Assembly (NCBI RefSeq): GCF_013155125.1
Contig: NZ_CP053564.1
Span: forward strand, 3,975,501-4,039,500
DNA from: Pseudonocardia broussonetiae
Lineage (GTDB): Bacteria; Actinomycetota; Actinomycetes; Mycobacteriales; Pseudonocardiaceae
Direction of reading: 5' to 3'
DNA length: 64,000 nucleotides
Shown: in pieces, positions 9,179 to 45,780 of the stretch
Position numbering within the stretch: position 1 is the stretch's first letter
Layout: each line of letters begins with the position of its first letter
Translations under genes and position numbers: made by a program
The notes under the pieces: model-generated
What the model saw: only the letters and a program-made list of their open reading frames with translations
What the model was told of the DNA's origin: nothing
The model's database searches: none

Positions 9179-9802
9179 GTGCAGATCGCCATCGTCCTCT
9201 ACCCGGACTTCACCGCCCTGGACATCATCGGGCCCTACGAGGTCCTGGGGCGCCTGCCCGGTGCCGAGGTCGTGTTCGTGGCGGAGGATCCCGGCCTCGT
9301 GCGCAACGACCAGCGGAGCCTGTCGGTCAGCCCGGAGGCGACCCTGGACGAGGTGACGGAGCCGGACATCGTCCTCATCGGTGGGGGTCCCGGGTTCTTC
9401 GGCCAGCTGGGCGACGGGAAGCTGCACGAGTGGCTGCGCACCGTGGACCGCACCAGCACCTGGACCACGTCGGTGTGCACGGGCGCGCCGATCCTGGCCG
9501 CGGCCGGGCTGCTGCAGGGACGTCGCGCGACCACCCACTGGTCGGCGTTCGGGGAGCTCGAGCGGTTCGGTGCGATCCCCGCGCACGAGCGGGTGGTCGT
9601 CGACGGCCACTACGTCACCGGCGCCGGGGTCTCGGCGGGCATCGACATGTCCCTGACCCTGGCCGGGGAGATCGCGGGGGAGGAGACCGCGCAGATGGTG
9701 CAGCTCATCATCGAGTACGCCCCCGAGCCGCCCTTCCGGGCCGGTTCGATCGACGTCGCTCCCGCGTCGGTGGTCGAGCGCGCCCGCGCGGCCCTGGGGT
9801 AG
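9179..9802 (+). CDS. DJ-1/PfpI family protein (isonitrile hydratase-like)
   Basis: A 207-residue DJ-1/PfpI-fold protein without an HTH. The nucleophile elbow is SVCTGAPILAAAGLL (Cys near residue 100), followed by GRRATTHWSAF. The N-terminal acidic residue is in YPDFTALDIIGPYEVL. This combination is seen in cyclohexyl-isocyanide hydratase and in the sensor half of GlxA regulators. GTG 9179 has AAGGAG nine bases upstream. It is convergent with a GlxA-type regulator carrying a homologous sensor domain. The true substrate is unknown. Confidence 0.82.
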   Translation: MQIAIVLYPDFTALDIIGPYEVLGRLPGAEVVFVAEDPGLVRNDQRSLSVSPEATLDEVTEPDIVLIGGGPGFFGQLGDGKLHEWLRTVDRTSTWTTSVCTGAPILAAAGLLQGRRATTHWSAFGELERFGAIPAHERVVVDGHYVTGAGVSAGIDMSLTLAGEIAGEETAQMVQLIIEYAPEPPFRAGSIDVAPASVVERARAALG

Positions 9803-9830: not shown

Positions 9831-10820
9831 TCAGGCGGGGGACCGGTGCGAGGGGTGCGCCGACGCCGCGTGCCGGGCCCGGTAGCTGCCCGGCGACTCG
9901 TCCAGGACCCGCAGGAACGCCCGGCGCATCGCCTCGGAGGTGCCCCAGCCGCAGAGGCGGGCGATCCGGTCGACGTTGTCGACGGTGTCGGTCAGCATCC
10001 GCTGGGCGGTCTCCACCCTCGCCTGCTCGACGTACTTCCCCGGGGTGGTGCCGGTCTCGGACTGGAACTGCCGGGCGAAGTGCCGGGGCGACATCGTGGC
10101 CCGCTCGGCGAGGGCCGGGACCGAGAGGTCCTCGTCGAGGTGGTCGGCCAGCCACGCGCGGATGTCGCCCAGCCGCGTCCGCCGGGTCGACTGCACGGCC
10201 AGCTGCGTGCTGACCTGCGCCTGGTGGCCGGGCCGGCGCACGAAGACCACGAGCAGGCGGGCCACGCGGAGCGCCAGCTCGCGACCGCAGTCCTGCTCGA
10301 TCAGCGCGAGCGCGAGGTCGATCCCCGCCGTGACCCCGGCCGAGGTGAAGATGCCGTCGTCCTCGACGAAGATCGGGTAGCGCTGGACCTGCACCTTCGG
10401 GTACTCCCGCGCGAACTGGCCGCAGTAGGACCAGTGGGTGGTGGCCCGCCTGCCGTCCAGCAGGCCGGCCTCGGCGAGGAGCAGTGACCCGGTGCAGACC
10501 GACGCCAGGCGCTCCACGTCCCGGCCCAGCACGCGCAACCTCGAGGCGATCGCGGGGTTCGGGACCTCGGCGCCGGGCCCGCCGGGGACGAGGAGGATGT
10601 CTGGTCGCCGGACGTCGTCGATGTCCAGGTCCGGCGTGACCGTGAGGCCTCCGGCGAGCCGGACCGGGCGCCCCCCGATCGACGCGGTGCGCACGACGTA
10701 GGGCGGCCCCTCCGGGGACGAGTGGTACCGGGCGACCCCGGTGAAGGCGTCGTACGGGCCGACGACGTCGAGGGGTTGCGCCCCGTCGAACACGAAGATC
10801 ACCACGGTCCGCGGGCGCAT
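9831..10820 (-). CDS. GlxA family transcriptional regulator (DJ-1/PfpI plus AraC HTH)
   Basis: A 329-residue regulator. Residues 1 to about 190 form a DJ-1/PfpI domain with a Cys elbow (ASVCTGSLLLAEAGLL). Residues about 215-320 form an AraC/XylS double HTH (DLSVPALAERATMSPRHFARQF, then IARLCGWGTSEAMRRAFLRV). The start is ATG 10820. Such regulators typically sense a small metabolite through the degenerate amidotransferase domain. The adjacent convergent gene encodes a stand-alone DJ-1/PfpI protein with the same CTG elbow. No AraC-type operator was identified. Confidence 0.88.
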   Translation of the reverse strand: MRPRTVVIFVFDGAQPLDVVGPYDAFTGVARYHSSPEGPPYVVRTASIGGRPVRLAGGLTVTPDLDIDDVRRPDILLVPGGPGAEVPNPAIASRLRVLGRDVERLASVCTGSLLLAEAGLLDGRRATTHWSYCGQFAREYPKVQVQRYPIFVEDDGIFTSAGVTAGIDLALALIEQDCGRELALRVARLLVVFVRRPGHQAQVSTQLAVQSTRRTRLGDIRAWLADHLDEDLSVPALAERATMSPRHFARQFQSETGTTPGKYVEQARVETAQRMLTDTVDNVDRIARLCGWGTSEAMRRAFLRVLDESPGSYRARHAASAHPSHRSPA

Positions 10821-11508: not shown

Positions 11509-11537
11509 TTGGTCTGGGATGCAGGCCACAAGACCAA
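11509..11537. promoter_or_regulatory. putative operator for the operon GntR regulator (site 1)
   Basis: TTGGTCT at 11509-11515 and AGACCAA at 11531-11537 form a perfect 7-bp inverted repeat, ending 18 bp before the substrate-binding protein start. The stretch CCACAAGACC inside it is identical to one in the site upstream of the GntR gene (22853-22862), and TGGT lies 17 bp upstream in both. This makes a shared operator plausible. Confidence 0.6.
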
Positions 11538-11555: not shown

Positions 11556-12545
11556 ATGACGAGGGCAGGGATGGCGCGACGGGTGGCCGGTGCGACGGCG
11601 ACGGCGCTGGTGGTGCTCGGGGTCGGCGCCTGCGGCTCGGGCGCCGCGGCCGCCGGTGGCGACTGCGCGGAGACCTACGAGATCGGGCTCAGCCACCCGG
11701 TCGGTGAGGCCGCCTTCGTGAAGGCCCTCAAGAGGGAGGTCCAGGCCCAGGCCGACCGGATCGGCTGCGTCGAGATGCTGTTCGACGACACGCAGGCCAA
11801 CGACCTGGAGTCCCAGCGCAACACGGTCGAGACCTGGGTGACCCAGCGCGTCGACGCCGTCGTCGTGCTCCCGGTGGACGCGAAGGCGCTCTCGCCGCTG
11901 CAGGAGCAGGCCCAGTCGTCCGGGATCAAGTGGCTCACCTACGCCACGCCCGGTGAGGGGGCGGACGGCTACACCGGGTTCGACAACGTCCTCAGCGGGG
12001 ACCTGGTGGGCCGGGCGGCCGCCGACTGGATCACCGAGAACCAGCTCGGCGGACGGGTGACCGCCGCCATCAGCTCGATCAGCGCACTCCCGGACGTCCG
12101 GGGGCGCTGGACGCAACCGGAGCAGCTGATCCCCGCCGCCGGTGTCGAGGTGGTGTCCCTCCAGGACTGCGCCGACCAGACCTGCGGTCTGGAGCAGGCC
12201 GAGGTCCTCCTCAACGCGCACCCGGACCTGCGGGTCTACATCGGGGCCAACGACGACGCCGCCCTGGGCGCGCTCAAGGCGTTCGAGAGCAGGGGCATCG
12301 ACCCGGGCGAGGTCTTCATCGCCGGGCAGGACGGCAACGTCGAGGCCCTCAAGGCGGTCAGGGCGGGCGGCGCCTACCGGTTGTCGGCCGCGATCGACAT
12401 GAACGACCTGGCCCGCGCGATCGTCCAGAACTCGATCAACGCCGTCACGGGCACGGGCGAGACCGAGACCGAGGCGACCGTCGTCCCCGCCTCCCTCGAC
12501 GACCCCGCCAGGCTCGACGCGCTGATCGCCCAGCTCGGTGGGTGA
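11556..12545 (+). CDS. sugar-type ABC transporter substrate-binding lipoprotein
   Basis: A 329-residue periplasmic-binding-protein type 1 (RbsB-like) protein. The signal peptide ends in a lipobox LGVGAC with lipidated Cys26. The fold shows repeated Rossmann-like blocks (YEIGLSHPVGEAAFVKALKREV, DAVVVLPVDAKALSPL, VYIGANDDAALGALKAF). GAGGGTGAGAG precedes ATG 11556. It is the first gene of a long operon whose other products handle amides and amines rather than sugars, so the ligand may not be a sugar. It acts at the outer face of the cytoplasmic membrane. Confidence 0.88.
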   Translation: MTRAGMARRVAGATATALVVLGVGACGSGAAAAGGDCAETYEIGLSHPVGEAAFVKALKREVQAQADRIGCVEMLFDDTQANDLESQRNTVETWVTQRVDAVVVLPVDAKALSPLQEQAQSSGIKWLTYATPGEGADGYTGFDNVLSGDLVGRAAADWITENQLGGRVTAAISSISALPDVRGRWTQPEQLIPAAGVEVVSLQDCADQTCGLEQAEVLLNAHPDLRVYIGANDDAALGALKAFESRGIDPGEVFIAGQDGNVEALKAVRAGGAYRLSAAIDMNDLARAIVQNSINAVTGTGETETEATVVPASLDDPARLDALIAQLGG

Positions 12546-12548
12546 GCG

Positions 12549-14084
12549 GTGCCCACGACCGGCATGACCATCGAGGGACTGACCAAGTCCTACGGGCCCA
12601 ACGCGGTGCTCCGCGGTGTCGACCTGGAGATCCGGGCCGGCGAGGTCCACGCCCTGCTGGGTCCGAACGGCGCGGGCAAGTCGACGCTGCTCGGCTGCCT
12701 GAGCGGCGCGGTGCGGCCCGACGCGGGGTCGATCGTCGTGAACGGCGAGTCCCACACGGGCTTCACCCCCCAGTCGGCCCTGCGGGCCGGCACGGCGATC
12801 ATCTACCAGCACCTGGAGCTCGTGGACGACCTGTCCGCGGTGGAGAACATCTTCCTCGGCACCGAGCTGCGCACCCGGTTCGGGACCGTCCGGCAGCGTG
12901 CGCAGCACCGGATCGCGTCGGAGCTCCTCGGGCGGGTCGGGGCCGGGTTCGACCCGGCCCGGCCGCTGACCTCGCTGACGACGGGGCAGAAGCAGGTCGT
13001 CGAGATCGCCAAGGCCCTCCGGCACGAGCCCGAGGTGCTCGTCCTGGACGAACCGACGGCCGCCCTGAGCGCGCGGGAGACCGAGGTGCTCCTGGCGCTC
13101 GTCACGAAGCTCGCGCACGGGTCGGGGCTCGCCGTCGTCTACGTCACCCACCTCCTGCGGGAGGTGACGGCGATCGCCGACCGGGTCTCGGTCCTGCGGG
13201 ACGGGAGCGTGGAGTGGACGCGGCGCAGCGCCGAGCTCACCCTCGAGGACCTGGTGGAGGGGATCACGGGCGCTCCCGCGCCCACGTCGAACCGGCCCCC
13301 GGGGACGGACGCACCGGGCGCGGGCGGGAAGGCACTGCTCGAGCTCACCGACTTCCGCGCCGCGGGCGCGCCCCCGGTCTCGCTCGCGGTCGGCGTCGGC
13401 GAGGTCGTCGGGGTGTTCGGACTCCTGGGGTCCGGTCGCACCAACCTGGTCGAGGCGCTGGCCGGGGCGCGGCCGAGCCGGGGCGGGCTCCGGCTGGCCG
13501 GGCGTGCGGTGCCGGTGCCCTCGCCGCGGGTCGCCCGCCGGTCCGGCATCGCCCTGGTGCCCTCGGACCGCGCGGTGCAGTCGCTGTTCCCGTCGCTGTC
13601 GGCGCAGGAGAACGTCCTGGTGCCGCACTACGGGCGGCTGTCGGGACGGGTGCGCCGCCCCGGGGTCGAGGAGCGGACGTTCCGCGAGGTCGCCGAGCGC
13701 ATGCGGCTGCACCCCCTGGACCCGGGACTGCCCGGGGACCGGTTCTCGGGCGGCAACGCCCAGAAGCTGGTGATGGGCCGGTGGCTCGTGGAGGACGGCG
13801 GCGTCACCCTGCTGCTGCTCGACGAGCCGACCCAGGGCGTCGACGTGGGGGCGCGCGCCGAGCTCCACCGCATGGTCCGGGAGTTCGCCCGCACGGGCGA
13901 CCGCGCCGTCGTGTTCGTCTCGAGCGACGTCGAGGAGCTCAACGCCCTCGCCGACCGGATCGTCGTCCTCGCCGACTCCCGCGTCACGGGGGTCGTCCCC
14001 GGCCACGCCTCCGAGCGGGACCTGCTCGTGCTCGCCCAGACGTCGGCCGGCGGCGTCGAACCCGAAGGGAGCAGTGCCGCATGA
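12549..14084 (+). CDS. ABC transporter ATPase, RbsA-type (two nucleotide-binding domains)
   Basis: A 511-residue duplicated ATPase. Domain 1 has Walker A GPNGAGKST, signature SLTTGQKQVVEIAKAL and Walker B VLVLDEPTAAL. Domain 2 has the usual degenerate P-loop GLLGSGRTNLVEAL, signature FSGGNAQKLVMGRWL and Walker B LLLLDEPTQGVDVG. Length and architecture match RbsA/MglA-type transporters. GTG 12549 follows the binding-protein stop by 3 bp, and its end overlaps the permease start by 4 bp. It energises the importer encoded by this operon. Confidence 0.92.
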   Translation: MPTTGMTIEGLTKSYGPNAVLRGVDLEIRAGEVHALLGPNGAGKSTLLGCLSGAVRPDAGSIVVNGESHTGFTPQSALRAGTAIIYQHLELVDDLSAVENIFLGTELRTRFGTVRQRAQHRIASELLGRVGAGFDPARPLTSLTTGQKQVVEIAKALRHEPEVLVLDEPTAALSARETEVLLALVTKLAHGSGLAVVYVTHLLREVTAIADRVSVLRDGSVEWTRRSAELTLEDLVEGITGAPAPTSNRPPGTDAPGAGGKALLELTDFRAAGAPPVSLAVGVGEVVGVFGLLGSGRTNLVEALAGARPSRGGLRLAGRAVPVPSPRVARRSGIALVPSDRAVQSLFPSLSAQENVLVPHYGRLSGRVRRPGVEERTFREVAERMRLHPLDPGLPGDRFSGGNAQKLVMGRWLVEDGGVTLLLLDEPTQGVDVGARAELHRMVREFARTGDRAVVFVSSDVEELNALADRIVVLADSRVTGVVPGHASERDLLVLAQTSAGGVEPEGSSAA

Positions 14085-15073
14085 CCGAGGTCCTCGCCAC
14101 CAGCACGCGGCCGACGGCGGCCGTCCCGCTCCGGTCCGGCCTGCTCACGGGCATCGACAGCATCATGCCCGTCGCGACCGTCGGGCTGATGGTGTTCTTC
14201 GCCGTCCGCGAGTCCGCGTTCCTGACCGCCGACAACCTGCTGCTCGTCGCGCTCCAGTCGGCACCGCTGATGGTCGTGGCCGTGGGGGCCGCGCTGCTGC
14301 TGATGTGCGGCTACATCGACCTGTCCGTCGGCTCGGTGATCGCGGTGTCGGGCGTCTGCGCCGGTCTGACCTTCAACGCCGCCGGCGTCCCGGCGGGCGT
14401 CCTGGTCGGGCTCTGCGTCGGTCTCGCCTTCGGCGTGCTCAACGGCCTGCTCATCGGCTACCTGGGCCTGTCGCCCATCATCGTCACGCTCGGCGTGCTG
14501 GCGGCCGGGCGGGGACTGGCGCAGGTGCTCTCGCCGGACTCGCTCTACGGGTTCCCCGACGCCGTGCTCGAGTTCGGCAGCGCGAGGGTCCTCGGCGTCG
14601 CGAACCTCGTGTGGATCGCGGTCGCCGTCGTGGCGCTCGGGGGCCTGGTCATGGCGATGCTCCCCGTGGGGCGCCACATCGTCGCGGTGGGCGTCAACAG
14701 CCGGGCGGCCTACCTCAGCGGGATCCCGGTCCGGCGGCTCGTCTTCGGGATGTACGCCCTGGTCGGCCTGCTCAGCGCCGTGGGCGGCCTCATGATCGTC
14801 TCGCGCCTGGACAGCGCCCCCAGCGGGACCCTGGGTGCGGGACTCGAGATCAGCGTCCTCACGGCGGTCCTGCTCGGCGGCATCCCCTACAGCGGCGGCA
14901 AGGGCCACCTGTGGCGGGTCGTCCTCGGCGTCTGGCTGATGGGGATCCTCACGAACGGCATCACCCTGATGAACGTCAGCTCGCAGCTCAGCCAGGTCCT
15001 CACCGGTCTCGTCCTGGTGCTCGCGGCCGCGCTCGAAGGCATCCGCTCCTGGCTCCACCGGTCGTCGCACTGA
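14081..15073 (+). CDS. ABC transporter permease, RbsC-type
   Basis: A 330-residue polytopic membrane protein with about eight to ten hydrophobic helices. It has the RbsC-family pattern LLMCGYIDLSVGSVIAVSGV near residue 80 and the cytoplasmic EAA-like loop VGVNSRAAYLSGIPVRRL. One permease gene is present, so the transporter would be a homodimer with the RbsA-type ATPase. ATG 14081 overlaps the ATPase stop. It is followed after 32 bp by the amidohydrolase-like gene, so uptake and breakdown are co-transcribed. Confidence 0.92.
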   Translation: MTEVLATSTRPTAAVPLRSGLLTGIDSIMPVATVGLMVFFAVRESAFLTADNLLLVALQSAPLMVVAVGAALLLMCGYIDLSVGSVIAVSGVCAGLTFNAAGVPAGVLVGLCVGLAFGVLNGLLIGYLGLSPIIVTLGVLAAGRGLAQVLSPDSLYGFPDAVLEFGSARVLGVANLVWIAVAVVALGGLVMAMLPVGRHIVAVGVNSRAAYLSGIPVRRLVFGMYALVGLLSAVGGLMIVSRLDSAPSGTLGAGLEISVLTAVLLGGIPYSGGKGHLWRVVLGVWLMGILTNGITLMNVSSQLSQVLTGLVLVLAAALEGIRSWLHRSSH

Positions 15074-15105
15074 CGTTCCGGCCCTCGACCCCTCGGGAGT
15101 TGCCC

Positions 15106-17334
15106 GTGATCCCCTCGATCCTGACCTCCTACACCGACCGGCTCTCCTACTTCCCCGGTGAGGCGATCCACCTGTTCGTCTCCAGCCCGCAGGAGGACCG
15201 GGCGAGGGTGTCCCTGGTGCACCTGGACGCCGCCCTCGACTCCCCGGGGAAGGAGGCGCAGACCACGGAGGTCCCGTGGGCCGACGCGACGACCGTGCCG
15301 GTCGGCGGGCAGGACGGCCACTTCGGCGGCTTCATGACCGGGGTCCTGGCCGCGGCGCCCGGCACCCGCTTCACGGTCGGGGCCTTCGTGCGCTTCGACG
15401 AGCGCATCGGGCCCTCGCTGCAGGCGGTCGTCGCGGTGGGCGACGAGCAGCGGGCCGTCGTCCTCGGTGTCGAGGACGCCCGGCTCGTGCTGCGCAGCCC
15501 CGACGGCGCGGTCCGATGCACCGAGCCGCTCGACCCGAACGCGTGGTACCTCCTCGTGGGCACCGTCGACGGTGACCGGGCCGAGGTGCACGCCCTCGCC
15601 GTCGAGGTGGGGGCCGCCACGGCGTCGGCGACCGGGAGCCTGCCCGGCGCCGCCCCGCTGGGCACCGACGTCGTCGTCGCCGGGGCCTTCCCGGTCGTGA
15701 CCCGGGGCAGCGGGGCCACCGCCCACGGGCGCGCGGCGGCGAACCTCACCGCCACCGTCAGCTGGCCGTTCGTGACCTCGACCGTGCTCGACCCCGAGCA
15801 GTTGCGCGCCCTGGCGCAGCAGCGCGCCCTCGACGCCGCGGCGTTCGGCGACGGGCTCCTCGGCGCCTGGGACCTGTTCCCGGGCGACGGCGAGGACGGC
15901 CTCGCGCGATCCGCCACCGGCGGCGAACCGGGACGGTTGCACAACCTGCCGACCCGGGCGGTCCCCGGGCCGAACTGGCAGCGGCGGACGACCCGCTTCG
16001 TGGAGGCTCCCGCCGAGTACTCCGCGGCCCACTTCCACGCGACCGACCTCGTGGACGCCGGCTGGAGCGAGACGTTCTCCGGCGCACTGCCCGCCGACCT
16101 GCCCTCGGGCGCCTACGCCCTCCGGGTCGCGACCGAGCGGGAGACGGACGTCGTCCCCTTCGTCGTGGCGCCCGCCCCGGCCGACGCCCGCAAGCCGGTC
16201 GTGGTGGTGATCCCGACCTTCACCTACCTGTCCTACGCCAACGAGTCGCTCTTCGAGGGCATGGTCCCGTCCGTCACCGGACACTTCACGACCGGCCCGA
16301 GCGAGGCGGACCTGGCCCACGTCGGGAACCGGACCTTCGGGCTCTCGCAGTACGACACCCACGCGGACGGCCACGGGGTGGTGTTCTCGAGCGCGGCGCG
16401 CCCGATCGTCAACACGCGGCACGACTACCGCATGTGGCTCAGCGACAGCGGTCGCGGCTTCTCGGCGGAGATGTACCTCCTGGAGTGGCTGGCGACCGTC
16501 GGGATCGCGTTCGACGTGATCACCGACTTCGAGCTGCACACGCTCGGCGCCGACTACCTCGCCGGGTGGGAGGTCGTCCTGTCGGGCGCCCATCCGGAGT
16601 ACCACTCGAGCGAGATGCTCGACGCGCTCACCCGGTACCGCGACACCGGCGGTCACCTCGTCTACCTCGGGGGGAACGGCTTCTACTGGGTGACCGGCGT
16701 CGTCTCGGAGTCGCCGCTGGTCCTGGAGGTCCGCCGCGGGTTCGCCGGCATCACGGCCTGGAAGTCCCGACCGGGTGAGACCTGCCTGGTCTCCACCGGG
16801 CTGCTCGGCGGGTCCTGGCGGCACCGCGGCCGGGAGCCGCAGCGCCTGGTCGGCGTCGGGATGGCGGGCCAGGGCTGGGGCGGCTCGCAGCCGTACTGGC
16901 GGACGGAGGCCTCGTACGCCCCCGAGGTCGCGTGGATCTTCGAGGGGGTGGAGGAGGAGCCGATCGGCGCGTACGGGCGCGTGATGGGCGGCGCCGCGGG
17001 TGACGAGCTCGACCGCGCCGACCCGGTACTGGGGACGCCCGCCGACGCGGTCGTCCTCGCCGCCTCGCGCGACCACGACCGCACCTACCAGCGCGACGCC
17101 GCCGAGGTGGCGTTCATCCTCGACGGCCAGCACGGCGGGGACGTCGATCCCGAGGTGCACTCCGACGTCGTCCACTTCACGACACCGGGCGGGGGAGCGG
17201 TGTTCGCCGCCGGGTCGATCGCGTACTCGGGCGCCCTGCTCGAGAACGGCGCGAAGAACGGGATCTCACGCATGACGGAGAACGTCGTCCGGCGCTTCGC
17301 CGGTCTCGACACCACCGAGGGGAGCAGCGCATGA
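15106..17334 (+). CDS. N,N-dimethylformamidase large-subunit (beta) family protein
   Basis: A 742-residue protein matching the length and layout of the N,N-dimethylformamidase large subunit. A beta-sandwich/LamG-like region (about 30-200) is followed by the N,N-dimethylformamidase beta C-terminal domain. The segment SGAHPEYHSSEMLDAL around residue 500, with YLGGNGFYWV after it, corresponds to the region that supplies the unusual tyrosine-ligated iron site in characterised enzymes. GTG 15106 with upstream GGGAG is used, since in-frame codons further upstream lie within the permease gene. Known enzymes hydrolyse formamides to formate and an amine and pair with a small alpha subunit, whose gene is not seen here. 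The physiological amide is unknown. Confidence 0.85.
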   Translation: MIPSILTSYTDRLSYFPGEAIHLFVSSPQEDRARVSLVHLDAALDSPGKEAQTTEVPWADATTVPVGGQDGHFGGFMTGVLAAAPGTRFTVGAFVRFDERIGPSLQAVVAVGDEQRAVVLGVEDARLVLRSPDGAVRCTEPLDPNAWYLLVGTVDGDRAEVHALAVEVGAATASATGSLPGAAPLGTDVVVAGAFPVVTRGSGATAHGRAAANLTATVSWPFVTSTVLDPEQLRALAQQRALDAAAFGDGLLGAWDLFPGDGEDGLARSATGGEPGRLHNLPTRAVPGPNWQRRTTRFVEAPAEYSAAHFHATDLVDAGWSETFSGALPADLPSGAYALRVATERETDVVPFVVAPAPADARKPVVVVIPTFTYLSYANESLFEGMVPSVTGHFTTGPSEADLAHVGNRTFGLSQYDTHADGHGVVFSSAARPIVNTRHDYRMWLSDSGRGFSAEMYLLEWLATVGIAFDVITDFELHTLGADYLAGWEVVLSGAHPEYHSSEMLDALTRYRDTGGHLVYLGGNGFYWVTGVVSESPLVLEVRRGFAGITAWKSRPGETCLVSTGLLGGSWRHRGREPQRLVGVGMAGQGWGGSQPYWRTEASYAPEVAWIFEGVEEEPIGAYGRVMGGAAGDELDRADPVLGTPADAVVLAASRDHDRTYQRDAAEVAFILDGQHGGDVDPEVHSDVVHFTTPGGGAVFAAGSIAYSGALLENGAKNGISRMTENVVRRFAGLDTTEGSSA

Positions 17335-18101
17335 CCGCGCGTCACCAGGGCCGGGTCGCCCTCGTCACCGGGGCCGGCGCCGGCATCGGACGCGCGATCG
17401 CGTTCCGGCTGGCCGCCGAGGGGGCCCGGGTCGTCGTCACGGACCTCGACGAGAAGGCGGCGACGGTGGTCGCCGAGGCCGTCGTGGCCGACGGGGGAGA
17501 GGCCGTCGCCGTCGCGCTCGACGTCCGGCGCCCGGACCAGATCGACGCGGCGGTGGCCCGGGCGGAGGAGGCGTTCGGCGCGATCCACCTGCTCGCCAAC
17601 AACGCCGGTGTCGTCACGGACCACTCCCTGGCCACCCTGACCGAGGAGGCCTGGGACCTCGTCGTCGACGTCAACCTGAAGGGACAGTTCTTCGTCGCGC
17701 GGGCCGTGGCCGCCGCCATGGCCCGGGCCGGCGGTGGCGCGATCGTCAACCTGTCGACGATCGAGGCGCTCGTCGTCGTCACGTCGGGGACGACGGCGCA
17801 GCCGCACTACAACGCCAGCAAGGGCGGCGTCCCGATGCTGACGAAGGCCCTGGCCGTGGAACTGGCCGCCGACGGCATCCGCGTCAACTGCGTGGCGCCC
17901 GGGCCGATCGCGACGGACTTCTTCGACCTGGAGGCGGTGACGTCGGAGGCGGGGCTGGAGTTCATGAAGCAGCGGCTGCTGGTGCCGCGCGTGGGACGAC
18001 CCGAGGACGTCGCGCAGGCGGTCTCGTTCCTCCTGTCCGACGAGGCGTCGTTCATCGACGGGGTCCAGCTCCCCGTCGACGGCGGGTGGCTGACCCGGTG
18101 A
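17331..18101 (+). CDS. SDR family NAD(P)-dependent oxidoreductase
   Basis: A 256-residue classical short-chain dehydrogenase. It has cofactor motif TGAGAGIG (residues about 13-20), NNAG, active-site Ser in NLSTIE, and YNASK with catalytic Tyr and Lys. The acidic Asp at the end of beta-2 (VVVTDLDEKA) favours NAD(H). It overlaps the amidase-like gene by 4 bp and the ligase gene by 4 bp, so it is central to the operon. It probably oxidises a hydroxyl or carbinol intermediate, perhaps before the aldehyde dehydrogenase step. Confidence 0.9.
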   Translation: MTARHQGRVALVTGAGAGIGRAIAFRLAAEGARVVVTDLDEKAATVVAEAVVADGGEAVAVALDVRRPDQIDAAVARAEEAFGAIHLLANNAGVVTDHSLATLTEEAWDLVVDVNLKGQFFVARAVAAAMARAGGGAIVNLSTIEALVVVTSGTTAQPHYNASKGGVPMLTKALAVELAADGIRVNCVAPGPIATDFFDLEAVTSEAGLEFMKQRLLVPRVGRPEDVAQAVSFLLSDEASFIDGVQLPVDGGWLTR

Positions 18102-19471
18102 GCGCCGAGATCCTCGCTGCGGCCGGACTCGCCGAGGACGAGATCCACACCGTCGTCGTCGCGACGCCGGACCTGCAGGGCCGCCTGGTCGGCCGCCGCG
18201 TCCCGGTCGAGGGCTTCGCACGGGTCGTCGAGGAGGGCGTCGACGTCTGCACCTGCGTCTTCGCCTGGGACCTCACGCAGAGCCTGGAGCTCGTGGAGGC
18301 GAACGTCTTCACGCTGTGCGGCCTGCACAACGGGATACCGGACTTCACGCTCCTGCCGGACCTCACGACCCTGCGCCGGGCGGCCTGGTTGGACGGGATC
18401 GCCTTCTGCTTCGCCGACGCCGTCGACAAGGCCACCCGGGAGCCCCTGCCCATCTCCCCGCGGCAGATCCTCAAGCAGCAGATCGAGCGCCTCGGCGCCG
18501 TGGGCCTGCGCGCGCTGACCGGGACGGAGCTGGAGTTCTACCTGTTCCTCAACGCGCCCCGGGACCTGCGCCGAGCCGGGTTCCGCGGGCTGGAGCCGAC
18601 CACCCTGGTCCCGTCGGACTTCATGATCCACGAGGGGAACCTCCACGAGCCGTTCTTCCGCGCGCTCCGCCGGGACCTGCGCGACTCGAGGATCGAGGTG
18701 GAGGCGGCCCAGAGCGAGTGGGGCTCGGGCCAGTGGGAGATGACGTTCCGCTACGGCGAGCCGTTGGAGATGGCCGACCGGCACGCCCTGTACAAGCTGG
18801 CGGTGCGCGACAGCGCCGCGGCCGCGGGGATGTCGGCCACCTTCATGGCCAAGCCGCTCAACCAGGGCCAGCCCGGGTCGTCGTGCCACGTCCACGTGTC
18901 CATGGTGGACCTCGACGGACGGCCGACCTTCTGGGACCCGGCGGAGGAGCACGGCATCGCCGGCACGATGGCGCAGGCGATCGGCGGAGTCCTCGAGCAC
19001 GCGCCGGACCTGATGGCCTGGTACGTCCCGACCGTCAACGCCTACCGGCGCGTGAACTCGGGCGACGTCGCCGGCTGGGGGAGCACCTGGGGGCTCGACA
19101 ACCGGACGACGTCGGTGCGCGTCGTCGGGCGGCACTCCCACGACCTCCGCTTCGAGTTCCGCCTGCCCGGGGCCGACACGAACCCGTACCTGACGCTGGC
19201 GGGGCTCCTCGCCTCCGCGCGGGACGGGATCCTGGGCAAGACCGCCCCGCCCCCGATGACGACCGGGAACGGCTACGCGGCGCCGGTGGACCCGGCGTTC
19301 CCGGTGGACCTGGGCCAGGCCGCGGCCCGGCTCCGGGGCTCCGCCTTCGTCGCCGACACCGTCGGCGAGGACCAGCGCGATCACATGGCCGTCCTGGCCG
19401 AGCACGAGTGGCGCGCGTTCATGGCCCACACCGGTGACTGGGACCTCGACCGCTACTTCGACAGGATCTGA
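18098..19471 (+). CDS. glutamine synthetase family protein (PuuA/gamma-glutamylamide synthetase-like)
   Basis: A 457-residue GS-fold ligase. It shows TGTELEFYLF (metal Glu), SEWGSGQWEMTFRYGEPLEMAD, GSSCHVHVSM (metal and ATP His), WGLDNRTTSVRVV and the C-terminal block FEFRLPGADTNPYLTLAGLL. Active-site loops differ from housekeeping GlnA (for example AWGRRNRS is replaced by TWGLDNRT), as in ligases that attach glutamate to amines other than ammonia. GTG 18098 gives a GTGA overlap with the SDR; GTG 18086 is an alternative. With the PuuD-like hydrolase and aldehyde dehydrogenase nearby, a gamma-glutamylation route is likely. The amine substrate is unknown. Confidence 0.88.
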   Translation: MSAEILAAAGLAEDEIHTVVVATPDLQGRLVGRRVPVEGFARVVEEGVDVCTCVFAWDLTQSLELVEANVFTLCGLHNGIPDFTLLPDLTTLRRAAWLDGIAFCFADAVDKATREPLPISPRQILKQQIERLGAVGLRALTGTELEFYLFLNAPRDLRRAGFRGLEPTTLVPSDFMIHEGNLHEPFFRALRRDLRDSRIEVEAAQSEWGSGQWEMTFRYGEPLEMADRHALYKLAVRDSAAAAGMSATFMAKPLNQGQPGSSCHVHVSMVDLDGRPTFWDPAEEHGIAGTMAQAIGGVLEHAPDLMAWYVPTVNAYRRVNSGDVAGWGSTWGLDNRTTSVRVVGRHSHDLRFEFRLPGADTNPYLTLAGLLASARDGILGKTAPPPMTTGNGYAAPVDPAFPVDLGQAAARLRGSAFVADTVGEDQRDHMAVLAEHEWRAFMAHTGDWDLDRYFDRI

Positions 19472-19477
19472 CCGCCG

Positions 19478-20920
19478 ATGGGAACCCCCGTCCCCCGCAC
19501 CTGGCTCGCCGGCGCACCGCGCGCCGGCGGTGCGACGACCACCCACGACCTCCACGACCCCAACACCGGCGAGGTCCTCCAGACCTACGCGTTCTCGTCG
19601 GACGCCCAGGTCGACGACGTGCTGGCCGCGGCGTCGGCGGCGCACGCGTCCGGCGTCTGGGCCGAGGCCGACCCGGCCGAGCGCGCCGCCGTGCTCACCG
19701 CCTTCGCCACCCGTCTGGAGGGCGTGGCCGACCGGATCGCCGAGCTGGACGCCCTCAACAGCGGGGTGCCGGTGCGGTTCACCCGCATGTTCGCGCGGAG
19801 CCTCCCGGACACCGTCCGCCGCGCGGTGGAGCTGGCGCAGGAGCAGGCCGCCCGCCGGTGGCTCGAGGCCGACGGGCGGAGCGTGCAGCTGCGGCACGTG
19901 CCGTGGGGCCCGACGGCCCTGCTGCTGCCCTGGAACGCACCCGCCGCCGTGCTGGTCAAGAGCCTCGCCTACGCCCTCGTCGCCGGGGCGCCGGTGGTGG
20001 CCAAGCCCTCGCCGGAGTCGCCGTGGAGCGCGGAGGTCGTGGCGGGCGCGCTGACCTCGGCGGGCGTCCCGGACGGCGTGTTCGGGCTCGTCCACGGGGG
20101 CGCGCACGTCGGGGGGCTGATCGCCGCCGACCCGAGGGTCCGGGCCGTGTCCCTGACCGGGTCCACGGCGACCGGCCGCAGCGTGGCGGCGACCGCCGGG
20201 GGGAACCTGACCCGGCTCCGCCTGGAGCTCGGGTCCAACAACCCGGCCGTGGTCCTCGCCGACGCCGACGTCCCGGCCACGGCCCGGGCTCTGGTCGCCG
20301 GGTTCACCAAGCTCAACGGCCAGTGGTGCGAGGCGCCCCGCGCGGTGTTCGCCGAGAGCCGCCTGGTCGAGCCGCTGGTCGAGGCCGTCGTCGCGGAGAT
20401 CGGCAGGATCGCGATGGGCCCCAGCACCTCCGGGGACACGACCTTCGGGCCCCTGGCGTTCGCCGGGCGGAAGGCGGCTCTCGAGGACCAGATCGAGCGG
20501 ATGGTGGCCGGGGGCGCCCGGCGCCTGGCGCCGCTCACCACGCCCCCGCGCGGCTGGTTCCTCTCGCCCACCCTGCTCCTCGGTGACGACGTGCGGCTCC
20601 CCGGTGAGGTGTTCGGGCCGGTCCTCGCGATCAGCCCGGTGCCGGACGACCGCCAGGCGGTGGCCGCGGCGAACGCACTCGGGGGCGGCCTCGCGGGCTA
20701 CGTCTTCACCGGCGACGAGGAACGGGGGATGCAGGTCGGTGCCCGGATCGTCGCGGGCGAGGTGAAGCTCAACGGGACCAGCCTGCTGGACATGGCGCGC
20801 GACTCGGCGCAGAGCTTCTTCGGCGGCAGCGGCCTGGGCGGGCACGGCGACCGCGACGTCCTGGAGTTCTACGCGGGCAAGCAGGTGCTCGGCGCCGACC
20901 TGCTCGACCCCGCGATCTGA
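19478..20920 (+). CDS. aldehyde dehydrogenase family protein
   Basis: A 480-residue NAD(P)-dependent aldehyde dehydrogenase. Visible features are PWNAPAAVLVKSLAYALVAG, SLTGSTATGRSVAA (cofactor turn), LELGSNNPAVV with the general-base Glu, and NGQWCEAPR with the catalytic Cys. The motif around the Glu reads GSNNP instead of the common GGKSP, so specificity may be unusual. It lies 6 bp after the ligase gene. In Puu-like pathways the corresponding enzyme oxidises a gamma-glutamyl aminoaldehyde, the step inferred here. Confidence 0.9.
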   Translation: MGTPVPRTWLAGAPRAGGATTTHDLHDPNTGEVLQTYAFSSDAQVDDVLAAASAAHASGVWAEADPAERAAVLTAFATRLEGVADRIAELDALNSGVPVRFTRMFARSLPDTVRRAVELAQEQAARRWLEADGRSVQLRHVPWGPTALLLPWNAPAAVLVKSLAYALVAGAPVVAKPSPESPWSAEVVAGALTSAGVPDGVFGLVHGGAHVGGLIAADPRVRAVSLTGSTATGRSVAATAGGNLTRLRLELGSNNPAVVLADADVPATARALVAGFTKLNGQWCEAPRAVFAESRLVEPLVEAVVAEIGRIAMGPSTSGDTTFGPLAFAGRKAALEDQIERMVAGGARRLAPLTTPPRGWFLSPTLLLGDDVRLPGEVFGPVLAISPVPDDRQAVAAANALGGGLAGYVFTGDEERGMQVGARIVAGEVKLNGTSLLDMARDSAQSFFGGSGLGGHGDRDVLEFYAGKQVLGADLLDPAI

Positions 20921-20956
20921 CCCCTCACGACCGTCCACATCGAACCGAGGAGAACC

Positions 20957-22027
20957 ATGATCGACGAGGTCTTCGGCGCAGGGCACGAGCAGGTGGTGCT
21001 GTGCCACGACGAGGAGTCCGGTCTCCGGGCCGTCATCGCCCTGTACTCCACTGCGCTCGGGCCCGCGATGGGGGGAACCCGCTTCTACCCGTACGGCTCG
21101 TCGCAGGAGGCCCTCGACGACGCGCTGCGGCTGTCGAGGGCGATGGCCTACAAGAACTCCCTCGCCGGGCTCGACCACGGCGGGGGCAAGGCGGTCGTCA
21201 TCGGCGACCCGGACAAGCACAAGTCCGAGATCGTCCTGCGGGCCTACGGCCGCTTCGTCCACGGCCTGAACGGCCGCTACATCACCGCGTGCGACGTCGG
21301 CACCTACAGCCCGGACATGGACGTCATCGCGCGCGAGACGCCCCACGTCACCGGGCGGACCGTCGCGAACGGCGGAGCGGGCGACTCGTCGATCCTGACC
21401 GCGTGGGGCGTCTTCCAGGGCATGCGGGCGGCGGCGCAGCACCGCTGGGGGAGCACGGCCCTGCGCGGCAGGCGGATCGGGATCGCGGGAGCCGGGAAGG
21501 TGGGGTCCCGCCTCACCGAGCTGCTGGTCGAGGCGGACGCGGTCGTGACGGTCACCGACCCCTACCGCCCGGCGCTCGACGCGCTGGTCGCCCGCTGCCC
21601 GCACGTCACCGTGGTCGACTCCACCGAGGAGCTGCTGGCCGGGGACCTCGACGTCTACTCGCCGTGCGCCATGGGCGGGGCGATCGGCCGGGCCACGCTC
21701 GCCGCGCTGCGGGCGGAGATCGTGTGCGGGGGAGCCAACAACCAGCTGGCCGAGCCGGGGATCGACCGGGAGCTCGCGGCCAGGGGCGTCCTGTACGCAC
21801 CGGACTACTGCGTCAACTCCGGGGGCGTCATCCAGATCGCGGACGAGCTGCGGGGCTTCGACCCCGAGCGGGCCAAGGCGCGGGCCACCGGCATCTTCGA
21901 CACCACGCTGCAGGTCCTCGAACTGGCCGCGTCCACGGGTGTCACCACCGCGGCGGCCGCGGACCGGCTGGCCGAGGAGCGGATCGCGGGCGTCAGCCGC
22001 CTGCGCGCCCTCCACACCGGCCCGTGA
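20957..22027 (+). CDS. Glu/Leu/Phe/Val dehydrogenase family protein (valine/leucine dehydrogenase-like)
   Basis: A 356-residue branched-chain-type amino acid dehydrogenase. It has the catalytic-Lys block [19 protein letters not shown], a dinucleotide fold [12 protein letters not shown] near residue 180, and [17 protein letters not shown] and [12 protein letters not shown] typical of leucine/valine dehydrogenases. GAGGAG precedes ATG 20957. These enzymes reversibly deaminate an aliphatic amino acid to a 2-oxo acid and ammonia. Here it closes the amide/amine operon and may remove ammonia from the released amino acid. Confidence 0.9.
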
Positions 22028-22081
22028 GACGGCGGTGGACGGCGGTCCCCGCGGGGTCCGCCGTCCCACCGGTCTCCGCAG

Positions 22082-22834
22082 TCAGGCCGACGCGGCCAGG
22101 GTGGACGTGGTGTCCCGCGCTGCGGAGACCAGCCAGCCGAACACCGGGTCACCCGCGAAGCACTCCGGGTGCCACTGGACGCCGAGCACGGGCGCGCCGT
22201 CCAGCTCGATCGCCTCGACGACCCCGTCGCCCGCCCGCCCGCTCACCCGGAGCCCGTGACCGAGCCGGTCCACGGCCTGGTGGTGGAAGGAGTTGACCGC
22301 CACCCGCCCGCCGTACAGACCGTGCGCCACGCTGCCGGCCTCGAGGTGGACGTCGTGGCGGCGGCTGGCCCGGGGGTAGGCGTGGGACGCGTGCGAGTCG
22401 CCCTCGCCGATCGGCAGGTCGGACACGAGGGTGCCGCCCAGTGCCACGTTGAGGAGCTGGGCCCCGCGGCAGATGCCCAGGACCGGTTTGCCGGCGTCGA
22501 GGACGGCCCGCAGGAGCGCCAGTTCGACGGCGTCGCGGACGGGGTCCAGCACGGTGGACCTCGGGCCGGCCACCGCGCCGTAGAGGGTCGGGTCCACGTC
22601 GTCGCCACCGGAGAGCACGAGCGCGTCGAGCACGTCGGCGACCGCCTCGGGCGGGCTGTCGACCGCGACGTGGAAGGGGAGCCCGCCCGCCTGCGCCACG
22701 CAGCGCGCGTAGTCGCTGTAGTACGCCTCCACCACCGCGTCGGCGAAGCCGGGCGGTGAGCCGATGCGCGAGGCGGTCGTGCGCCGGCCCGTCAGGCCGA
22801 CGACGGGTGGGCGACGATCGGGATCGGGTCTCAT
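22082..22834 (-). CDS. gamma-glutamyl-gamma-aminobutyrate hydrolase family protein (PuuD-like class I amidotransferase)
   Basis: A 250-residue class I glutamine amidotransferase fold. The nucleophile is Cys in LGICRGAQLLNVALGG, with the oxyanion/GG motif ALVLSGGDDVDP and the His/Glu pair in GVQWHPECFAG. The second conserved block FHHQAVDRLG matches PuuD-type hydrolases. ATG 22834 is chosen over an upstream GTG/ATG run because the 22837-22855 palindrome begins immediately beyond it. It is convergent with the main operon and divergent from the GntR gene. It would remove glutamate from gamma-glutamylated intermediates made by the GS-like ligase. Confidence 0.88.
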   Translation of the reverse strand: MRPDPDRRPPVVGLTGRRTTASRIGSPPGFADAVVEAYYSDYARCVAQAGGLPFHVAVDSPPEAVADVLDALVLSGGDDVDPTLYGAVAGPRSTVLDPVRDAVELALLRAVLDAGKPVLGICRGAQLLNVALGGTLVSDLPIGEGDSHASHAYPRASRRHDVHLEAGSVAHGLYGGRVAVNSFHHQAVDRLGHGLRVSGRAGDGVVEAIELDGAPVLGVQWHPECFAGDPVFGWLVSAARDTTSTLAASA

Positions 22835-22836
22835 AA

Positions 22837-22862
22837 TGGTATGGATTCTAGACCACAAGACC
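22837..22862. promoter_or_regulatory. putative GntR operator in the PuuD/GntR divergent promoter (site 2)
   Basis: TGGTATGGATTCTAGACCA (22837-22855) is an imperfect 19-bp palindrome. It is followed by CAAGACC, and the 26-bp region matches site 1 at 11510-11535 at most positions. It starts 3 bp beyond the PuuD start codon and lies 26 bp before GTG 22881, so binding would block both promoters. Confidence 0.65.
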
Positions 22863-22880
22863 TCGAGAGGCGGAGATCCG

Positions 22881-23603
22881 GTGCTCCGGAATAGGCTCGG
22901 CGACGTGGCCGATCCCCAGGTGCGTGTTCCCGCGGCCTACTCGGTGGTGGTGGAGAGGCTCCGGCGGGACATCATGCTCAGCCGGGTGTCGCCCGGAGAA
23001 CGGTTCCCGCCGGAGCGCGAGCACGCCGAGCGCCTGGGCGTCTCGCGGGTGACCCTGCGCGAGGCGCTCCGCGTCCTCGAGGGCGAGGGCCTGATCGAGG
23101 TGCGCCGAGGCGTCCACGGCGGCTCGATCGTCACGACACCCCCGGCGGCCGACGGCCGCGTGCCTCCGCTGGTCCCGTGGTCGGAGCTCCAGGGACTGCT
23201 CGAGCTCCGGGCCTGCATCGAACCGCTCGCCGCCCGCCGCGCGGCGGAGCGCCTCACCGACGAGGGCTTCGCCGGCCTGGACCGGGCGGTGCAGGGGCTG
23301 GGCACGGCGACGGACATCGGGACGTTCCGGGCCCTGGACTCCGCGTTCCACCTGCTGATCGCGGAGATGGCCGACCTGCCGCTGCTGCTCACCGCCGTCG
23401 AGGCGACCCGGATCGCGATGTTCGAACCGCTGGACCGGCTGGACTTCGACGTCGCCCTCGCGTCGACGCAGCGGGCGCACCGTCGCGTGCTGGCCGCCAT
23501 CGCGGAGGGCAACGCGAAGCTGGCGGAGCGACGGATGGCGGCGCACCTGGCCGACTCGGGCCGTGAGATCGCCGAGGTGTACGCCCGGTTCACGGAGGCC
23601 TAG
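22881..23603 (+). CDS. GntR family transcriptional regulator with FCD domain
   Basis: A 240-residue FadR/FCD regulator. The winged helix is at about residues 20-85 (VVVERLRRDIMLSRVSPGERFPPEREHAERLGVSR is visible in parts) with recognition region SRVTLREALRVLEGEGL. The FCD domain occupies the C-terminal 150 residues (ALDSAFHLLIAEM, HRRVLAAIAEGN). GTG 22881 is preferred for its GGAG six bases upstream; GTG 22905 is an alternative. It is divergent from the PuuD-like gene and is the likely regulator of the whole amide/amine cluster. An IS481 element inserted so that the native stop TAG 23601-23603 lies inside the target duplication; the reading frame was not altered. Confidence 0.88.
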   Translation: MLRNRLGDVADPQVRVPAAYSVVVERLRRDIMLSRVSPGERFPPEREHAERLGVSRVTLREALRVLEGEGLIEVRRGVHGGSIVTTPPAADGRVPPLVPWSELQGLLELRACIEPLAARRAAERLTDEGFAGLDRAVQGLGTATDIGTFRALDSAFHLLIAEMADLPLLLTAVEATRIAMFEPLDRLDFDVALASTQRAHRRVLAAIAEGNAKLAERRMAAHLADSGREIAEVYARFTEA

Positions 23604-23604: not shown

Positions 23605-24720
23605 TGTACTGATCGGAGACGTTGGTCGAGGTCGTGTGACGACACGGTCTGACTGATCTTGATAGGTGAGGACCCCCTGGGGTGGTGTGGAGCTGTCTGA
23701 CGGCACCCACACCACGACCCCAGGAGGTCCTCACCGTGCACGCTAACGCTGCGCTGACCCCGACCGCACGACTACGCCTGGGGAAGCTGGTCGTCGAGCA
23801 GGACTGGCCCGTCGCCCGGGCCGCGGAACGGTTCCAGGTGTCCTGGCCGACGGCGAAACGCTGGGCCGACCGCTACGCCTGCGAGGGCGAGGCCGGGATG
23901 CAGGACCGGTCCTCCCGCCCGCACCACTCGCCGCTGGCGACCCCGGCCCCGGCGGTGCGCAAAATCGTGCACCTGCGCTGGAAGCAACGCCTGGGCCCGG
24001 TCGGGATCGCCGCGATCCTCGGGCTGTCGACCTCCACGGTGCACCGCATCCTGACCTCATGCCGGATCAACCGGCTCTCCCACCTGGATCGGGCCACCGG
24101 GGAACCGGTGCGCCGCTACGAACACCCCCACCCCGGCGACCTGGCCCACGTGGATGTGAAGAAGCTGGGCAACATCCCCGACGGCGGCGGATGGCGCTTC
24201 GTCGGACGAGCCCAAGGCAAGCGTCATCGAGCCGCGACCCCGGGCAAGCCGCGCAACCGCCACCACCAGCCCAAGATGGGCACCGGCTACCTGCACACCG
24301 TCCTCGACGACCACTCCCGCGTCGCCTACACCGAGATATGCGACGACGAAACCGCCACCACCGCGGTCGCGGTGCTACACCGGGCAGTGGCCTGGTTCGC
24401 CGCCCGCCACATCACCGTCCGAGCGGTCCTGACCGACAACGGAGCCTGCTACCGCTCACACCTGTGGCGCGAGGCCTGCGCCGAGCTCGAGATCCGCCAC
24501 CGCCGCACCCGCCCCTACCGCCCGCAGACCAACGGCAAGGTCGAACGGTTTCACCGGACGCTGGTCGAGGGGTGGGCGTTCCGCCGGCTCTACGCCAGCG
24601 AAACCCACCGCCGCAAAGCCCTACCCGGCTGGATTCACGAGTACAACCATCACCGACCCCACACCGCCTGCGGCGGACACCCACCGATCACCAGGTTGAC
24701 CAACCTGTCCGATCAGTACA
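23605..24720 (+). mobile_element. IS481 family insertion sequence (1,116 bp), intact
   Basis: The element is bounded by terminal inverted repeats TGTACTGATCGGA at 23605-23617 and their complement at 24708-24720, extending to 23 bp with two mismatches (23605-23627 and 24698-24720). It is flanked by 6-bp target duplications CCTAGT. It contains one transposase gene with an intact DDE triad and so may still be active. It sits just after the GntR stop codon. Confidence 0.92.
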
Positions 24721-24725
24721 CCTAG
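23736..24725 (+). CDS. IS481 family transposase
   Basis: A 329-residue transposase. The N-terminal HTH (ARAAERFQVSWPTAKRWADRY) and second HTH (GPVGIAAILGLSTSTVHRIL) precede an rve-type DDE core. Catalytic acids are in LAHVDVKKLG, VLTDNGACYRS and NGKVERFHRTL. GTG 23736 follows AGGAGGT. The stop codon TAG at 24723-24725 lies outside the inverted repeat, within the duplicated target CCTAGT, so termination depends on the insertion site. It is full length for the family with no frameshift. Confidence 0.93.
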   Translation: MHANAALTPTARLRLGKLVVEQDWPVARAAERFQVSWPTAKRWADRYACEGEAGMQDRSSRPHHSPLATPAPAVRKIVHLRWKQRLGPVGIAAILGLSTSTVHRILTSCRINRLSHLDRATGEPVRRYEHPHPGDLAHVDVKKLGNIPDGGGWRFVGRAQGKRHRAATPGKPRNRHHQPKMGTGYLHTVLDDHSRVAYTEICDDETATTAVAVLHRAVAWFAARHITVRAVLTDNGACYRSHLWREACAELEIRHRRTRPYRPQTNGKVERFHRTLVEGWAFRRLYASETHRRKALPGWIHEYNHHRPHTACGGHPPITRLTNLSDQYT

Positions 24726-45749: not shown

Positions 45750-45778
45750 GAAGCGCTCTCCCACTGAGCTAATCGCCC
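45704..45778 (-). tRNA. tRNA-Val(GAC)
   Basis: A full cloverleaf on the minus strand: acceptor GGGCGAT/ATCGCCC, D-arm GCTC...GAGC, anticodon stem CTTCC/GGAAG with loop TTGACAC (anticodon GAC), T-loop TTCAATC, discriminator A and encoded CCA. It is the integration site of element A; its 3-prime 46 nt lie in the duplicated att sequence. Confidence 0.95.
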
Positions 45779-45780
45779 GA

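Follow-up and report, generated by a model that had tools for sequence, protein, structure and literature searches.

Positions 11556 to 23603 of a 64,000-nucleotide stretch of DNA from Pseudonocardia broussonetiae (contig NZ_CP053564.1, positions 3,975,501 to 4,039,500 of the forward strand; the whole stretch is called the window here) hold a cluster of ten genes. We propose, with a probability of about 0.6, that the cluster is one regulon for the catabolism of an aliphatic amino alcohol amide, of the type R-CO-NH-CH(R')-CH2OH, a reading drawn from gene content and sequence comparison. The window has a GC content of 72% and sits in a 7.29-Mb genome of 4 contigs. The first-pass annotation, made from the letters alone, had described a chain of importer, dimethylformamidase (DMFase)-like hydrolase, short-chain dehydrogenase/reductase (SDR), glutamine synthetase (GS)-like ligase, aldehyde dehydrogenase (ALDH) and Val/Leu-type dehydrogenase, with a PuuD-like hydrolase and a GntR regulator at its end. 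We confirmed all ten genes, which are present with open frames at the positions it gave:

11556..12545 (+), CUT2-family solute-binding lipoprotein (SBP); Peripla_BP_4, 110 bits; VGAC lipobox by eye
12549..14084 (+), CUT2-type double ABC ATPase; ABC_tran twice; top NCBIfam model AraG, under its cut-off
14081..15073 (+), CUT2-type ABC permease, assigned by position and homology; coding frame with 84-85% orthologs in loci L009 and L116
15106..17334 (+), DMFase-like iron amidase (DMFA2_C), 742 aa; PF20254
17331..18101 (+), SDR, predicted gamma-glutamyl-amino-alcohol dehydrogenase; profile matches
18098 (or 18086)..19471 (+), GS-like, predicted gamma-glutamyl-amine ligase (GoaS type); PF00120, 274 bits
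19478..20920 (+), ALDH, predicted gamma-glutamyl-aminoaldehyde dehydrogenase; PF00171, 329 bits
20957..22027 (+), valine/leucine-type amino acid dehydrogenase (Vdh-like, ELFV); profile and solved relatives
22082..22834 (-), PuuD-like, predicted gamma-glutamyl-amide hydrolase (Peptidase C26); PF07722, 202 bits; solved relatives including PuuD 6vtv
22881..23603 (+), GntR/FCD regulator, start uncertain (near 22881); PF07729 and PF00392

The eight plus-strand genes (11556-22027) overlap or are closely spaced, which suggests one operon. The SBP and ATPase genes are 3 nt apart, the ATPase and permease genes overlap by 4 nt, and 32 nt separate permease and amidase; the amidase and SDR genes overlap by 4 nt, the SDR and GS-like genes also overlap, and gaps of 6 and 36 nt precede the ALDH and dehydrogenase genes. 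The PuuD-like gene is convergent with the operon, and the GntR/FCD gene is divergent from the PuuD-like gene.

In the proposed route, in which every substrate and reaction direction is a prediction, the binding protein and the CUT2 importer would take up an N-acyl (perhaps N-formyl) aliphatic amino alcohol, and the iron amidase would split the amide, releasing the amino alcohol and a small acid, formate or another. At the expense of ATP the GS-like enzyme would cap the amine with glutamate, and the cap would shield the reactive amino-aldehyde formed later. Oxidation by the SDR to the aldehyde, and from there by the ALDH to the acid, would yield a gamma-glutamyl amino acid, which the PuuD-like hydrolase would split into glutamate and the free amino acid. 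Deamination by the Vdh-like enzyme would then give a 2-oxo acid. GntR would govern the operon, puuD and gntR through two copies of one operator. The outline of import, hydrolysis, gamma-glutamylation, oxidation, deglutamylation and deamination had been put forward in the first-pass annotation, which left the SDR step unassigned; it fits both gene content and co-conservation.

All ten genes are found again, in unchanged order, in Nakamurella leprariae (L009; 71-85% per protein) and in genome G439, from another family of the same order (76-85%), where puuD is divided between two fetched stretches (L116 and L117). Because gene set and order recur in these two, the cluster is not a chance assembly. 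In Aeromicrobium endophyticum (L010) eight genes, in the order SBP-ATPase-permease-amidase-PuuD-SDR-GS-ALDH, match at 53-69%, with a 39% GntR match behind them; here puuD lies inside the operon, the ELFV gene is not present in the locus, and an amino-acid-permease gene adjoins the cluster. Amidase, importer and module are co-conserved in all four readable loci with an amidase above 56% (the window's own, G439, L009 and L010), a comparison that leaves aside the amidase relative P0004 (56-57%). The co-conservation of the DMFase-like gene with the GS, ALDH and PuuD genes, proposed earlier as a check on the pathway, thus holds in four loci.

Among 36 genomes of the same genus, the window's own included, an amidase match above 60% was found only in the latter (the next, in G413, is at 49%). 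Of the 394 genomes in a class-wide sample, 17 had an amidase match at E <= 1e-60, all except the window's own at 44% identity or less. An IS481-type transposase gene (23682-24725, +) lies directly behind gntR; this insertion element and the patchy presence of the amidase suggest horizontal gain.

The predicted gamma-glutamyl module

Compared with the genome's own GlnA-type proteins, in columns chosen by eye on the basis of known motifs, the GS-like protein shows Val where E327 would stand and Ala at the D50 position, followed two columns later by an Asp. It also carries an N-terminal loop insertion of about 12 extra residues, and on inspection by eye it retains the residues for metal, glutamate and ATP. 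GlnA4 and NpaA1 are likewise reported to have lost the ammonium residues E327 and D50 and to have a loop insertion (PMC6529630, PMC11335346; here and below, statements on published systems refer to the parts of the cited papers available to us). The marks of the GoaS type, that is, loss of E327 and D50, the loop insertion and retention of the other residues, are all found in this protein, and we consider the gamma-glutamyl module very likely. The joint presence of PuuD-like and GS-like genes would also suit a Puu-like catabolism of polyamines or diamines. This seems highly improbable, as the GGputSyn model gives the GS-like protein only 171.6 bits against a cut-off of 650, and no PuuB-type FAD amine oxidase is found among the genes of 11556-23603, the stretch to which the search for PuuB was confined. 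The polyamine route, which the first-pass annotation had kept in view, was set aside because the operon is without an amine oxidase.

The GS-like protein was searched in the class-wide sample and in two order-wide samples, and eleven foreign GS loci were read: the seven best class-wide (46-66%) and four of the six order-wide (60-61%). The match in G892 (79%) and class-wide matches at about 40% or less stand outside this set; the lower-GC loci L145-L148 and L150 were analysed by tblastn matches and plain open reading frames. In eight of the eleven loci, from four genera, PuuD, SDR, GS, ALDH and GntR occur together, and amidase and CUT2 importer are absent from the fetched stretch. An APC permease accompanies the module in L144, L157 and L158. 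In L147, L148 and L150 an APC permease was not identified and a second GS gene lies nearby; L159 and L160 have only a 91-residue APC-like match, with no intact permease identified. L149 holds SDR-GS-ALDH only. PuuD-SDR-GS-ALDH-GntR is thus a separable module, since the palindromic site described below also precedes five amidase-free module loci.

In L145 and L146 an iron-containing alcohol dehydrogenase (Fe-ADH) gene directly adjoins ALDH-GS. The occurrence of an Fe-ADH in place of the SDR argues, not cleanly, that the SDR step would be an alcohol oxidation. With the SDR assigned in this way, a pathway for amino alcohols is the most likely reading, and we regard an amino alcohol as a reasonably probable identity for the amine.

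Several module loci have further neighbours. Within about 7 kb of the permease-fed module of L157 and L158 lie genes for an ELFV dehydrogenase (40-41%) and for the E2 of a 2-oxoacid dehydrogenase. The idea that L157 has an operon for a branched-chain oxoacid dehydrogenase next to its module holds only in part: ELFV dehydrogenase and E2 are present, but the three frames scanned between them encode a MatC/citrate-type transporter, a metallo-beta-lactamase fold and a protein without a family. A beta-eliminating-lyase gene of the threonine-aldolase type (L144:4873-5940) adjoins gntR of the permease-fed module in L144, where the product might be a hydroxylated amino acid. The module of L159 and L160 is preceded by a xanthine-dehydrogenase-type molybdenum enzyme and, by eye, by enoyl-CoA-hydratase-like and acyl-CoA-ligase-like genes.

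A ligase, an alcohol dehydrogenase, an ALDH, an amidohydrolase and a regulator, the gene content of a gamma-glutamyl amino alcohol pathway, stand together in the window, as they do in the gamma-glutamyl ethanolamine pathway. The ethanolamine cluster of S. coelicolor comprises a short-chain dehydrogenase, an aldehyde dehydrogenase, GlnA4, a regulator, a transporter and a glutamine amidotransferase; of this route only GlnA4 was assayed, the later steps being predicted (PMC6529630). Similar parts form a cluster in Phaeobacter MED193 (PMC10132767). In contrast to the ethanolamine pathway, whose proposed route ends at glycine in the sources available, the window adds an amide importer and an iron amidase before the core and a Vdh-like enzyme after it. 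The claim that the pathway is undescribed therefore stands in part: the GS-SDR-ALDH-amidohydrolase core is published for ethanolamine in S. coelicolor and Phaeobacter, and the DMFase-like/CUT2 front end and the Vdh-like back end are new. No amidase-containing amino-alcohol pathway was found among the papers listed by our literature searches (open-licence PMC, which was the scope of all of them).

Two other systems share parts with the window. In the Ipu isopropylamine pathway of Pseudomonas KIE171 and Arthrobacter aurescens TC1, an amine is gamma-glutamylated, an amidotransferase-type hydrolase takes part and alaninol is an intermediate; unlike in the route proposed here, the glutamyl amide is oxidised by a P450, and alaninol is released first and oxidised afterwards (PMC6776027). 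The window operon has no P450. In a span of about 15 kb the tetramethylpyrazine plasmid of Rhodococcus opacus 1CP (L006) carries DMFase-like, PuuD-like, GS-family and SDR genes; a glutaminase gene lies with them near tpdB. In contrast to the window, these genes are distant relatives (DMFase-like 46-47%, PuuD 39%, GS 30%), they lie near tpdB, and a CUT2 importer is not among the listed features. Tetramethylpyrazine breakdown reportedly proceeds via N-acetylated amino-ketone and amino-alcohol intermediates, which we take as a lead and not as a test. The available part of PMC6099782 does not mention N-acetylated tetramethylpyrazine intermediates.

The iron amidase and the importer

The amidase scored 274.6 bits against PF20254 (cut-off 27) over its C-terminal domain, which places it in DMFA2_C. 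Its solved relatives are the DMFase 6LVB (330.8 bits) and the N-acetyl-(R)-beta-phenylalanine acylase 8HUY, both near full-length matches; because the second solved member is such an acylase, for which we found no literature report, the family cleaves larger amides too. In DMFase, Y399, Y440 and E521 are the Fe(III) ligands and H519, N547 and E657 are catalytic (PMC7686228). In an alignment with DmfA2 of pAMI2, to which the amidase is 32% identical, all six residues are identical in the window protein and in 11 relatives. The column of F693, a residue that narrows the DMFase pocket, has Phe in the window, L009, L010 and L116 and Met in the 8 other aligned relatives, in a part of the alignment that is loose; this Phe hints at a small acyl group, e.g. 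formyl. From these likenesses, hydrolysis of an amide is the likely first step. Neither the amidase nor the PuuD-like protein matched a defence model.

The homology to DMFase raises the degradation of N,N-dimethylformamide or a simple N-alkyl amide, followed by gamma-glutamylation of methylamine, as in Paracoccus aminophilus. That organism has both a DMFase and a glutamate-methylamine ligase, and so provides a precedent, for methylamines, of amide hydrolysis followed by gamma-glutamylation by a GS-like ligase (PMC4543880); it is the only combination of DMFase with gamma-glutamylation that we found in the literature. Unlike in the window, its genes lie on different replicons and dimethylamine is demethylated first, and SDR-ALDH-PuuD steps are not described in the available part of the report (PMC4543880). 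DMFase moreover requires a small subunit, the Paracoccus large subunit being inactive alone (PMC7686228). In contrast to the two-subunit enzyme, the window amidase has no adjoining small subunit gene and lies within a CUT2/gamma-glutamyl operon; a genome search with DmfA1 of pAMI2, run without a positive control, found nothing at E <= 1. As the small subunit was not found and the route would require N-methylglutamate enzymes and not an SDR, an ALDH, PuuD and a valine-type dehydrogenase, dimethylformamide degradation was set aside as very unlikely.

In the wider DMFA2_C family the link between amidase and module is rare. Among the best 80 loci of 433 relatives, 2 had a PuuD match, 4 a GS match (2 of these at about 30%) and 15 a CUT2-permease match, counts that are lower bounds because 32 of the 80 loci are shorter than 20 kb. 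Several genomes of the same genus (L111, L112, L113, L115) have a tandem DMFA2_C pair; these loci are short and show no match to the module. In the window itself an amidase-signature amidase gene (26285-27721, -) lies apart from the operon, with no known link to it.

CUT2 importers carry mainly sugars and polyols. The amidase/CUT2 pair might accordingly handle a polyol- or sugar-derived amide, with a polyhydroxylated amino alcohol, e.g. an aminopolyol, as the amine. L019 combines the amidase and CUT2 importer genes with those of an FGGY kinase and GlpA-like FAD proteins; the gene order of L019 is shared by similar genes in L020 and L023, and in L151 the pair occurs with an FGGY kinase and a TIM barrel. 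These four loci may represent a second, polyol-type setting of the front end, which may thus serve more than one kind of cargo. For the window we consider a polyol amide improbable, given the resemblance of its dehydrogenase to leucine dehydrogenases and the features of the binding protein, whose best solved matches are 4YV7 and RbsB-type chains. The Asp-Arg pair of 4YV7, which we take to hold sugar hydroxyls in CUT2 binding proteins, is absent in 13 of 13 aligned amidase-linked binding proteins, all 13 of which keep the preceding Tyr; those of L051, L056 and L151 are among the proteins outside this alignment. The pair is present in both 4YV7 and RbsB, and it falls in a gap of the RbsB alignments. 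Its loss speaks against an ordinary sugar as ligand; it names no ligand.

The dehydrogenase and the product

By its solved-structure matches the dehydrogenase resembles leucine dehydrogenases. At positions 40, 42, 113, 134, 291 and 294 of 1LEH, presumably the pocket, it has Met, Gly, Ala, Thr, Val and Ile, against Leu, Gly, Ala, Thr, Val and Val in 1LEH. Its nearest relative in Aeromicrobium (64%) adjoins purF-purM, and three other paralogs there are at 49-51%; a relative in G238 (56-57%) also adjoins purM and purF. A synteny study places vdh in a purF-purM block in Streptomyces (PMC13118837), and by identity the dehydrogenase is closest to the purF-purM-linked copy. The genome has no second match to it at E <= 1e-10. 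Because of the likeness to leucine dehydrogenases, the purF-purM-linked relatives and the sole copy in the genome, the amino acid made is probably valine-like. We give about even odds to an aliphatic side chain of the Val, Leu or 2-aminobutyrate kind.

The sole copy can also be read in another way. The module would then act on ethanolamine or another unbranched amino alcohol, its gene content being that of the S. coelicolor ethanolamine cluster, and the Vdh-like gene would be a passenger that replaces a missing housekeeping valine dehydrogenase; the absence of another dehydrogenase match in the genome and the position of the Aeromicrobium copy at purF-purM, outside the cluster, agree with this. 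We consider it unlikely, since the dehydrogenase gene lies directly behind the ALDH gene in three genomes and, to our knowledge, glycine is no usual substrate of the dehydrogenase family.

A 774-aa/150-aa gene pair is common to L009, L010 and L116. A molybdenum hydroxylase reading of the pair was ruled out, as the L116 copies are an AceE-like E1 and an AsnC regulator. E1 and AsnC genes lie within about 5 kb of the cluster in all three loci (in L009 and L010 by similarity), and in L010 an E2 gene follows E1; the E1 relative (63%) in the window's genome is far from the cluster. Proximity of E1 and AsnC may reflect a 2-oxo acid product of the proposed route, and may be a coincidence.

Upstream of the cluster, a DJ-1/PfpI protein gene (9179-9802, +), whose closest solved protein is the isonitrile hydratase InhA (177.7 bits), stands tail to tail with a regulator gene:

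9831..10820 (-), GlxA/FtrA-type regulator (DJ-1/PfpI plus AraC), kept beside the cluster in relatives

The regulator has the same place in L116 (83%) and L009 (78%), and L010 shows only a 108-residue match. Valine-derived isocyanides and N-formylvaline conjugates exist in fungi (PMC9381783). With the InhA-like gene, the F693 hint and the Vdh-like enzyme, a route from isocyanide through formamide to amine can be drawn: the hydratase-like protein would convert, e.g., a valine-derived fungal isocyanide to an N-substituted formamide, the amidase would remove formate, and the module and the Vdh-like enzyme would lead to a branched keto acid. If true, this route would cover the entire catabolism of a natural isocyanide. 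It is a long shot, as the gene at 9179-9802 lies outside the operon and is not adjacent in the three sister clusters, where relatives at 45-62% occur elsewhere in the genomes; N-formylvaline itself, moreover, would need no gamma-glutamyl steps.

Farther along the window (44248-45974), excisionase-like and integrase-like genes, recognized by eye, adjoin three tRNA genes, possibly as part of an integrated element.

A repeated palindromic site and the reach of the proposed pathway

A palindromic site, TGGTCTR-N5-YAGRCCA, occurs before the operon and between puuD and gntR:

11510..11528 (+), predicted GntR operator 5' of the operon; 0 mismatches to TGGTCTRNNNNNYAGRCCA
22837..22855 (+), predicted GntR operator in the puuD/gntR gap; 1 mismatch on either strand

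These are the only two sites in the window with fewer than 2 mismatches to TGGTCTRNNNNNYAGRCCA. When as many as 3 mismatches are allowed, the window has 26 matches where 17.06 are expected, so that only the two best sites are meaningful. A first motif count, over 7 intergenic regions, was no more than suggestive: the best 7-mer occurred in 5 of them, a spread that some 7-mer reached or exceeded in 31 of 300 shuffles. Further operons and the palindromic pattern strengthened the case: of 12 upstream regions, 11 have a site with 0-2 mismatches, each equalled by 0-2 of 200 shuffles. Because the pattern comes from the very sites that it scores, the mismatch counts are to some extent circular, and the shuffles and the separate operons carry more weight. 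Upstream regions of ten amidase-free loci (all but L146) were taken in, and five of them, L144, L157, L158, L159 and L160, have the site with 0-1 mismatches; the first three loci are permease-led, and L159 and L160 are near-identical in the site region. GntR relatives at 30-84% lie beside related modules. We infer that operon, puuD and gntR form one regulon, with GntR as the predicted binder of the site, and that the amide-fed and permease-fed versions with good sites would answer to a similar inducer.

Several observations weigh against the proposed route. Amidase, importer and module are joined in only 4 known loci, and 78 of the 80 DMFA2_C loci are without a PuuD match. Other amidase/CUT2 loci have FGGY kinases and polyol-type dehydrogenase or TIM-barrel genes, and therefore compounds derived from polyols or sugars may be the cargo of the front end; G168, a module-only genome, has a 40% amidase relative elsewhere, beside a CUT2 importer and an FGGY kinase. 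The SDR and ALDH profiles leave the substrates unfixed, and the exchange of SDR for Fe-ADH is not clean because L145 and L146 are without a PuuD match and L146 keeps a 38% SDR match two genes on. The Aeromicrobium cluster is without the dehydrogenase, copies of which lie elsewhere in that genome, and 4 of 14 genomes (G168, G127, G304, G413) have no dehydrogenase match at E <= 1e-40, so that deamination is not obligatory for the module. Finally, the region upstream of gntR in L009 does not carry the site (4 mismatches, equalled by 69 of 200 shuffles), and the site is weak or absent in L147, L148 and L150 (3-4 mismatches) and in L149 and L145 (5).

The cluster ties a little-known family of iron amidases to gamma-glutamyl amine catabolism, and gives it a physiological setting besides solvent degradation. 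It suggests a modular logic, in which one amino alcohol module is fed either by an amino-acid-type permease, with the free amine, or by a CUT2 importer and an amidase, with the amide-bound form. If true, this would predict a substrate class for an orphan subfamily of CUT2 binding proteins, and likewise for actinomycete GS-like proteins that are annotated merely as glutamine synthetase.

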